Source: a virus | IMG/VR virus record: IMGVR_UViG_3300011116_000272 | Location: 1 to 34,553 of that record | Strand: one strand, 5' to 3' | DNA length: 34,553 nucleotides | In this document: positions 5,725 through 7,107 of the stretch, one piece after another | Position numbering within the stretch: position 1 is the first letter of the stretch | Layout of the letters: the number at the start of each line of letters is the position of its first letter | The notes under the pieces: model-generated | What the model was told of the DNA's origin: nothing | The model's input: the letters and a program-made list of their open reading frames with translations, nothing else | The model's database searches: none | Translations under genes and position numbers: made by a program

Positions 5725-5979
5725 ATGCAAAAGAAATTACTCGTCATTCCAGATCACATTTATATCAAGATAAAAAAGTTCAGACATTCACAAGAAATAT
5801 CTAGTGAAGCCGAGGCGATTAGAGTTATCCTTGCCGCCGGTATTGCGTTTTTAGAGGGGGAAACAGATGTCGGCTTATCTCAAACAATTACATCAAGAAC
5901 ACATGGCGAGAGCGATCAGACTGGGCAAAGTGGAGAGACCGAAACTGACATTGGTGTCCAAAACTTATCAACAACCTAA
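5725..5979 (+). CDS. Putative ribbon-helix-helix (CopG/Arc-like) regulator
   Basis: An 84-residue protein beginning MQKKLLVIPDHIYIKIKKF. Residues 3-40 read as a short beta strand (KLLVIPDHIY) followed by two helices with a turn (SSEAEAIRVILAAGI), the plan of ribbon-helix-helix DNA-binding proteins. It probably binds the divergent promoter region just upstream. AGGAG lies at proper distance from the ATG at 5725; another in-frame ATG at 5707 would lack a site. The last 113 bases overlap the next gene in another frame, and the C-terminal half (Ser/Thr/Gly/Gln-rich) looks like a tolerated overlap rather than a folded domain. RHH assignment is by pattern only. Confidence 0.6.
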   Translation: MQKKLLVIPDHIYIKIKKFRHSQEISSEAEAIRVILAAGIAFLEGETDVGLSQTITSRTHGESDQTGQSGETETDIGVQNLSTT

Positions 5980-6364
5980 ACCATTGGAAAGAATAGAAGA
6001 TCTAAAACTTGTCCACACTATTCACAATATTTGTTGTATGAAACAATACGGGATCTTTTTAACTGATGTGCAAATTGAAAAAGTCAGACCATCTTGGGAT
6101 GATATTGTGAATTTTGTCTGCATGAAATTTGGTTACAAAACCCGTTATCTCTTGTGGTCCAAACATCGCAACAAGCGTTATGTCAGATCACGCTGGGAAG
6201 TCTGGGCGCTCGCGGATTATCTTTGTCCACATCTTAGTTATCCTAAAATCGGACAGCTGTCCGGCGGCATGGATCACTCAACAGTCATGCACGGTGTCAA
6301 TCAAATGAAACAAGCTGGTCAAGTAGAAAAACTGGTGAACGAGTTTTGGAATAGAAGTTTATAA
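5867..6364 (+). CDS. Protein with a DnaA domain IV-like DNA-binding signature
   Basis: A 165-residue protein. Its C-terminal part (about 110-150) carries the DnaA domain IV plan: WEVWALADYLCPHLSYPKIGQLSGG followed by DHSTVMHGV (136-144), close to the DnaA signature DHTTVLHA that reads the DnaA box. There is no AAA+ ATPase domain, so it is a stand-alone DNA-binding protein and could be a replication initiator, a DnaA competitor or a regulator. The N-terminal half is basic and unrecognised. GAGGGGG stands 6 bases ahead of the ATG, which supports this start inside the previous gene. Several near-matches to the DnaA box occur within this gene. Confidence 0.8.
   Translation: MSAYLKQLHQEHMARAIRLGKVERPKLTLVSKTYQQPKPLERIEDLKLVHTIHNICCMKQYGIFLTDVQIEKVRPSWDDIVNFVCMKFGYKTRYLLWSKHRNKRYVRSRWEVWALADYLCPHLSYPKIGQLSGGMDHSTVMHGVNQMKQAGQVEKLVNEFWNRSL
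5965..6231 (+). promoter_or_regulatory. Cluster of DnaA-box-like 9-mers
   Basis: Four 9-mers one mismatch away from TTATNCACA lie inside the DnaA-signature gene: TTATCAACA (5965-5973), TTGTCCACA (6009-6017), CTATTCACA (6018-6026, directly abutting the previous one) and TTGTCCACA again (6223-6231). All point the same way. They could bind host DnaA or the domain IV-like phage protein. Single mismatches to a degenerate 9-mer occur by chance, so only the tandem pair and the repeated identical 9-mer make this notable. Confidence 0.35.
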
Positions 6365-6366
6365 AA

Positions 6367-6402
6367 ATGGGCTCCAGAAAGGGGAAGCAAACTGGAGCCC
6401 AT
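6367..6402. terminator. Perfect 11-bp hairpin after the DnaA-like gene
   Basis: ATGGGCTCCAG (6367-6377) and its exact reverse complement CTGGAGCCCAT (6392-6402) enclose a 14-base loop AAAGGGGAAGCAAA. It begins 3 bases after the stop of the DnaA-like gene. No T-tract follows, so it could be a weak terminator, an RNA-processing or stability element, or a protein-binding palindrome. The rest of 6403-6492 holds only a 15-codon frame without a free ribosome site. Confidence 0.55.
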
Positions 6403-6492: not shown

Positions 6493-7107
6493 ATGCAATT
6501 AACAAAGATCATAGAAGCCATGGTTCTGAATGGCTGCACAGGTGAGCAGATCTTCGCTGTAGTCAAAACCCATGAAGATGAACTTAAAGTAAAGCTTGAA
6601 GAGAGGCGGGTTAAGGCTCGTGACAAGAAACGCAGACAACGTGCTATGTCCCCAATTGTCCCCAATTGTCCCCCTGTTGTCCCGGGGACAGATCGGGACC
6701 TCTCTCTCCCCTCTCCTCCCCTTAATGGTTCCCCCCTTACCGCATATAATATAAATACTATATCCCCCCTTCCTTTATCCCCTACCTCTCCCCTCACACA
6801 CACTTTTGGTCAACGAAAAGCTGACCTCAATCTTTTCAATGACTTCTGGGATGCCTATCCGCGCAAAACTGCTAAGGGTGCTGCGGAAAAAGCTTGGGCG
6901 AAGGCGATCTTGCACACGTCGGGTTCTGACATCATTCATATTGTTAAACGGGTTAAATGGCCGGACGACCCTGAGTTTGTCCCGCATCCTAGCACTTGGT
7001 TAAATCAGAGGCGCTGGGAAGACGAGGGACCGAAACAGCCGATCACGCAGGAAGAACGAGACGAACGGGCACGGGTTTATCTGAGGAGCATTGGGCGCAA
7101 TGTCTGA
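6493..7107 (+). CDS. Phage replication protein, lambda O / DnaD-like
   Basis: A 204-residue protein in three parts. The N-terminus (1-51) is helical and becomes very basic (RRVKARDKKRRQR). The middle (52-105) is a Pro/Ser-rich linker. The C-terminus has LNLFNDFWDAYPRKTAKGAAEKAWAKA and FVPHPSTWLNQRRWEDE, a block common in phage replisome organisers and helicase loaders. It would bind the phage origin and recruit the host helicase. The gene follows the DnaA-like gene and its linker-coding DNA carries an iteron-like array and an AT-rich tract, as in lambda O. Ribosome site is modest (AGGT). The general role is fairly sure; the precise family is not. Confidence 0.75.
   Translation: MQLTKIIEAMVLNGCTGEQIFAVVKTHEDELKVKLEERRVKARDKKRRQRAMSPIVPNCPPVVPGTDRDLSLPSPPLNGSPLTAYNINTISPLPLSPTSPLTHTFGQRKADLNLFNDFWDAYPRKTAKGAAEKAWAKAILHTSGSDIIHIVKRVKWPDDPEFVPHPSTWLNQRRWEDEGPKQPITQEERDERARVYLRSIGRNV
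6647..6763 (+). promoter_or_regulatory. Candidate replication origin: iteron-like array and AT-rich tract
   Basis: TGTCCCCAAT occurs twice head to tail at 6647-6656 and 6657-6666, a third copy of its core TGTCCCC begins at 6667, and a fourth core is part of the palindrome TGTCCC-G-GGGACA at 6678-6690. Spacing is 10, 10 and 11 bases, one helical turn each, so all sites face the same side of the DNA. About 50 bases downstream lies an A/T-only tract (ATATAATATAAATACTATAT, 6744-6763). Iterons followed by an AT-rich unwinding region inside the initiator gene is how lambda ori is built within O. Function is inferred. Confidence 0.5.

Follow-up and report, generated by a model that had tools for sequence, protein, structure and literature searches.

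A candidate replication origin of phased TGTC half-sites within a phage initiator gene, and a basic helix as its proposed reader

Positions 6647-6763 of the window, by which we mean the whole 34,553-base stretch of viral DNA that was analyzed, are likely to be the replication origin of the phage. The candidate origin lies in codons for the linker of the phage's own replication initiator, and its array of short repeats is likely read by the basic helix of that same protein. The initial annotation had proposed an origin inside its own initiator gene and unlike that of lambda. At the level of sequence this proposal is now better supported, because the C-terminus of the initiator, the constraint at the DNA level, the A/T element, and the joint exchange of N-terminal domain and array all fit it. 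The locus has the following features:

5867-6364, plus strand: gene with a match to the DnaA C-terminal domain, domain IV (PF08299, 1.1e-12), given as context and not claimed as the array reader
6493-7107, plus strand: replication initiator (rep) gene, 204 amino acids, with PHROG matches over residues 32-194
6493-6642, plus strand: small N-terminal domain, codons 1-50, delimited by the family alignments A7/A10 and AlphaFold2
6607-6642, plus strand: basic end of the long helix, residues 39-50, RVKARDKKRRQR (contains KKRRQR), delimited by KRxQR conservation
6647-6690, plus strand: phased array, with TGTCCC at 6647, 6657, 6667 and 6678 and an inverted copy at 6685-6690
6691-6743, plus strand: pyrimidine-rich stretch (Pro/Ser linker codons), read from the sequence
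6744-6763, plus strand: A/T tract ATATAATATAAATACTATAT, candidate unwinding element, 19 of 20 bases A or T and one C
6811-7074, plus strand: C-terminal replication-initiation domain, residues 107-194, from the phrog_270 match

The TGTCCC copies on the plus strand follow each other in steps of 10, 10 and 11 bp. The first two belong to a tandem duplication of TGTCCCCAAT (6647-6666), and the inverted copy on the minus strand (6685-6690) completes the palindrome TGTCCC-G-GGGACA at 6678-6690. These positions agree with what had originally been noticed, a tandem repeat followed by a third core and a palindrome at a spacing of 10, 10 and 11 bases, and the array indeed lies in Pro/Ser-rich linker codons of a replication gene. 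The linker separates the two halves of the initiator, and its DNA carries the array. In all 23 genes of 23 examined, the half-sites start 1-27 nt past the codons of the basic helix. The DNA from +60 to +160 past the basic motif is 77% pyrimidine.

TGTCCC as such is not over-represented in the 34,553-base window (14 copies observed, 11.7 expected, standard deviation 3.3). Five of the 14 copies are packed into the 44 bases of the array, and 6647-6684 is the one place in the 34,553 bases where three or more TGTC follow each other at 10 or 11 bp. A chain of four did not occur in any of 200 Markov-simulated windows. We give hardly any credence to the idea that the array is a by-product, in the DNA, of a proline repeat in the protein or of codon bias. 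The stretch does encode a Pro/Ser linker, and in 65 of 5000 trials a milder shuffle of the gene's own synonymous codons gave four TGTC in a chain. However, none of 5000 recodings of the 204-residue protein with the codon usage of the window yielded four identical 6-mers chained at 10/11 bp, and none of 5000 yielded six TGTCCC. Moreover, the 10/10/11 steps shift the reading frame, so that a repeated peptide cannot cause the array. The protein-level proline repeat that had been named as a potential refutation therefore fails, with the cores sitting in different reading frames. In an alignment of the window with L004 and L005, all 24 core columns are invariant, whereas 9 of the 20 spacer columns differ (P = 2.4e-4, assuming equal columns). 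Across the family, the peptide over the array changes, while the phase of the DNA is kept. GC skew, also suggested as a check, makes no sharp turn at the array; its cumulative minimum, at about 8.5-9 kb, tracks gene direction, and we dropped it as evidence for an origin.

The initiator matches phrog_270 (E = 5.2e-20), phrog_9327 and phrog_9474, with E values from 5.2e-20 to 3.6e-17. Searches of the 204-residue protein against Pfam and NCBIfam gave no match. The conserved C-terminal domain of the three PHROG families is present in the window protein. The matches start at profile positions 143-171, and the long N-terminal region that precedes the basic segment in initiators of this type is absent; the window protein has about 50 residues before the linker. 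AlphaFold2 predicted for this N-terminal domain (mean pLDDT 93.4) a short helix (residues 3-12), a turn or loop, and a long helix (residues 17-51) with a basic end. The linker is modeled with very low confidence in the full-length structure. The KRxQR motif is kept in the whole small-domain family, and we propose that the basic end of the long helix is the DNA reader of the array.

On its own, the small domain gave nothing useful in Pfam and NCBIfam, and a fold search returned no PDB match at E<=0.001, as expected for a 52-residue hairpin. Its profile matches were mostly to designed helical proteins and covered part of the domain. For DNA binding in the manner of bHLH or bZIP proteins, considered as an analogy only, neither a solved fold nor a sequence relative was matched. 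In the host search, the A3 profile scan of genome_contigs found 0 relatives, and the small-domain model matched 0 of 9 genomes and 0 of 289 genomes of the class of G001. Weak matches to this model (E 0.01-0.08) were found in 3 of 8 genomes.

The pairing of domain and array can be approached from either side. Starting from the protein, we collected 20 loci by an N-domain alignment scan and Pan3 by protein similarity, with no array criterion. L347, L358 and L362 (already known) and L352 and L355 (near copies) were excluded from the resulting set of 19 distinct genes, and L004 and L006, near copies as well, were not entered. All 19 genes have three or more TGTC/GACA half-sites in the 130 nt past the basic motif. 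Together these genes have 36 same-strand pairs at 10 or 11 bp, compared with a mean of 3.2 and a maximum of 10 in 2000 codon shuffles, and 80 of their 84 same-strand distances up to 40 bp fall at 10-11, 20-22 or 30-33 bp. Taken singly, 14 of the 19 genes pass the codon-shuffle test at 5%; L348, L354, L357, L363 and L364 do not. The C-termini of the small-domain family are of several kinds, and all 10 family members scanned match PHROGs with replication names, L360 weakly (E 0.002). No such array was found in five phage initiators with a related C-terminus and another N-terminus (Hum25, Mova, Shamal, KHumphrey and Azospirillum Cd). As a separate observation, a second ORF in L023, with its frame at 798 upstream of rep, has a similar helix-plus-basic N-terminus (weak domain match, E 0.02), followed by a segment that we label HNH-nuclease-like.

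Starting from the DNA, a complete scan of viral_contigs with the exact 11-bp array pattern yielded 37 loci. A regular expression found a KRxQR-type motif at most 45 residues upstream for 40 of the 50 array matches, corresponding to 29 of the 37 loci, and inspection of the other eight by eye revealed a similar basic stretch, such as RKRRERARKK, in seven. Ten of the 37 loci have the small domain. In 25 others, a good many of which are near-copies, the N-terminal region is unrelated and longer, and it terminates in the same kind of basic segment, AARKRRQRA-like or RKRRER. The array therefore accompanies the basic helix and not one N-terminal fold. In L372 (5261-5752), the one locus of the eight without such a stretch, the open frame starts next to the array: the initiator frame is broken there and the basic segment is readable in another frame just upstream, due to either an error or a real frameshift.

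A looser search gave at least 120 array stretches with the core TGTCCC and 75 with the control core CCTGCT, the control being complete. Matches to phrog_186, a DnaD-like loader family, were counted among ORFs of at least 190 amino acids (57 of 63 used, six second-frame ORFs left out). They occurred in 18 of 57 ORFs among the TGTCCC matches listed and in 2 of 33 for the control core. Nine of ten hand-picked ORFs from the TGTCCC matches listed match replication PHROGs, and many of the ORFs listed there are initiators of a different kind. An upstream basic segment was found for 17 of 49 ORFs among the viral TGTCCC matches listed (background 0.142) and for 2 of 23 with the control core. The corresponding scan of genome_contigs gave at least 120 stretches. 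Among the matches listed there, the upstream basic segment was no commoner than background (4 of 40 ORFs, background 0.099), and this set was therefore left unused. L025, L029, L043, L136, L139 and others also have arrays of the GGTGTCCCTATGGTGTCCCTATGGTGTCCCTCAGGGACACC kind, stepped at 11 bp and closed by a palindrome; no ORF of at least 100 amino acids lies over them, and they perhaps represent the origins of a different group of phages or plasmids.

A natural exchange can be read from the comparison of the window with L003. Identity is 97-99% through the DnaA_C gene and still 92% between this gene and rep, drops to 49% in the N-domain codons and 40% in the array, and is 81% in the linker, 70% in the A/T tract and 86% in the C-terminal part. 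N-domain and array thus diverge between conserved flanks, which indicates that the two were swapped together, as a single cassette, with the C-terminal part retained. It had been argued at the outset that relatives with the same gene but without the repeats would speak against an origin. L003 and L006 do lack the TGTCCC array, but they also have a different N-domain, and at the position of the array they carry TGTC on the minus strand at 11-bp steps and the terminal palindrome TGTCACGTGACA, so the objection does not hold. Our proposal that the initiator may read its own array rests on this joint exchange and on the co-occurrence of the two elements.

The same comparison bears on the question whether the array is a site for some other protein, such as the upstream DnaA_C product, host DnaA, or a recombination or packaging factor. 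We think this very unlikely. A protein with DnaA domain IV is encoded just upstream, and the DnaA-box-like TTGTCCACA sequences at 6009 and 6223 partly resemble the core. However, the DnaA_C protein is 99% identical in L003 although array and N-domain were replaced there together, so that a nearly unchanged DnaA_C protein did not preserve the earlier array. In addition, the array accompanies either the N-domain or the basic helix in phages that are unrelated to each other, and its cores are without the CACA of DnaA boxes. A read-out by the initiator itself is the reading we prefer.

The upstream region has further features of its own. Both copies of TTGTCCACA lie inside the DnaA_C gene; the one at 6009 is in the same place in L003, L004 and L006, and L005 has TTATCCACA. 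Between the DnaA_C gene and rep there is an intergenic hairpin (6367-6402), in the same place in L003-L006. In L005 and L006, two of its stem pairs show changes in both partners, and the loop AAAGGGGAAGCAAA is invariant. The hairpin has no T-run, and an Rfam search with it gave no match.

The A/T tract begins 53 bases past the palindrome. It had been described as a 20-base, A/T-only tract about 50 bases on; the position holds, and the composition needs the correction that one of the 20 bases is a C. Among 592 windows of 20 bases in the gene, the tract ranks first in A/T content. In 22 of 25 genes, the best 20-mer after the array ranks within the top 16 windows of its own gene by A/T content; no clear A/T element was found in the remaining three (L349, L356 and L365). 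The initiators L351, L353, L360, L361 and L366, whose N- and C-termini differ, share an identical 18-mer behind the array, ACCCCCTAAAGAAATTAA, which is perhaps part of the candidate unwinding element.

Phased half-sites alone do not specify an origin and would also suit the own gene of a DNA-binding protein. The array could then be an autoregulatory operator, at which the initiator blocks its own transcription as a roadblock, with the origin elsewhere; sites for self-binding inside the gene could indeed limit its expression. We consider this unlikely, because the array lies about 150 nt into the gene and not at a promoter, because an A/T element follows it in the 22 genes mentioned above, and because the origins of lambda and SPP1 occupy the same place according to passages in published accounts (PMC3349717, PMC7466680, PMC6316719).

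An origin within the initiator gene accordingly has precedents. In lambda, iterons and an A/T-rich stretch are located in the middle part of the initiator gene O, as parts of two accounts describe (PMC3349717, PMC7466680). The window gene resembles it in having presumptive initiator-binding repeats and an A/T-rich stretch (6744-6763) beside them, both inside the initiator gene (compared with NC_001416 and the passages on lambda in PMC3349717 and PMC7466680). The modules differ. Lambda iterons are 18 bp long with starts 20-24 bp apart, whereas the window has half-sites of 4-6 bp at 10-11 bp, and gene O contains no TGTC chain. Unlike lambda O, the window N-domain is predicted to be a helical hairpin with a basic tail, and no O-like PHROG was matched. 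Membership in the lambda O/ori-lambda family proper was rejected on the lack of 18-bp iterons and of an O-like family match, and the early remark that the repeat is unlike the lambda iteron is borne out. For SPP1 oriL and gp38, sections of PMC6316719 place direct repeats, together with an A/T-rich element for unwinding, inside the gene whose product binds the repeats, a likeness to the window by description and not by sequence (PMC6316719). The record of the Lactococcus phage Tuc2009 notes an origin within rep, as we propose for the window, but that gene has no TGTC/GACA chain and no KRxQR motif.

A similar layout is seen in initiators of the Rep_org_N type from Firmicutes phages (phi 11, SN8, IPP62, Javan584, Javan242), in which a basic helix is immediately followed by short repeats at 10/11 bp. 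In these five among 13 genes examined, identical 6-mers were above nearly all shuffles. N-domain, basic helix and core (GTAACG) differ from those of the window. Phased GTAACGTTAC/GTAACG repeats directly past the basic helix were seen in the Firmicutes replisome organizers L405, L406, L407, L409 and L410, a group that includes Staphylococcus phage phi 11. Searches of the open-licence literature turned up no account of the array, of the domain or of their pairing. The original suggestion of an uncharacterized origin type thus stands for the module and not for the kind, as origins inside initiator genes are already known. The best explanation appears to be that the locus works like the intragenic origins of lambda and SPP1 and is a different module.

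A possible code relates the helix register to the spacing of the sites. Counted from the conserved glycine of the turn, KRxQR ends after 37 residues in seven genes, all with 10-bp arrays, and after 36 residues in sixteen genes, all with 11-bp arrays; L349 has seven extra residues and mainly 11-bp multiples. With all multiples counted, helix length and spacing are concordant in 24 of 24 genes. With adjacent steps and strict cores, 21 genes are for, one (L349) is against, and two (L355, L361) are undecided. On the domain tree, helix length and spacing each change once, so that their match amounts to one event and not to independent support. We regard the code as a lead, not as proof.

If the locus functions as proposed, initiator molecules would dimerize or oligomerize via their N-terminal helices, and the basic end of each long helix would sit in TGTC half-sites on one face of the DNA. 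The resulting protein row, anchored at the inverted pair, may strain the duplex. This strain could open the A/T tract about 50 bp downstream, and the C-terminal domain might then recruit the host helicase or its loader.

Taken together, the comparisons allow a broader reading, which we put forward tentatively: the KRRQR-type helix may be a portable origin reader, helix and array may form a self-contained, swappable cassette, and the register of the long helix may set the spacing. On this reading, the basic helix would recur after N-terminal domains that are unrelated to each other, each time just upstream of the array that it reads. A distance of 37 residues between turn and basic end would go with 10-bp arrays and one of 36 residues (with or without a 7-residue insert) with 11-bp arrays, and where the basic helix changes, the core would change as well (GGGACA/GTCAC or GTAACG). 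If true, phage origins would be predictable from sequence alone, including those of uncultured phages, as an initiator basic helix followed by half-sites phased at 10-11 bp. There would be a small protein-DNA code, relating helix register to site spacing and basic residues to the core. It would also explain how an origin and its reader can be exchanged jointly among phages without breaking the match between them.
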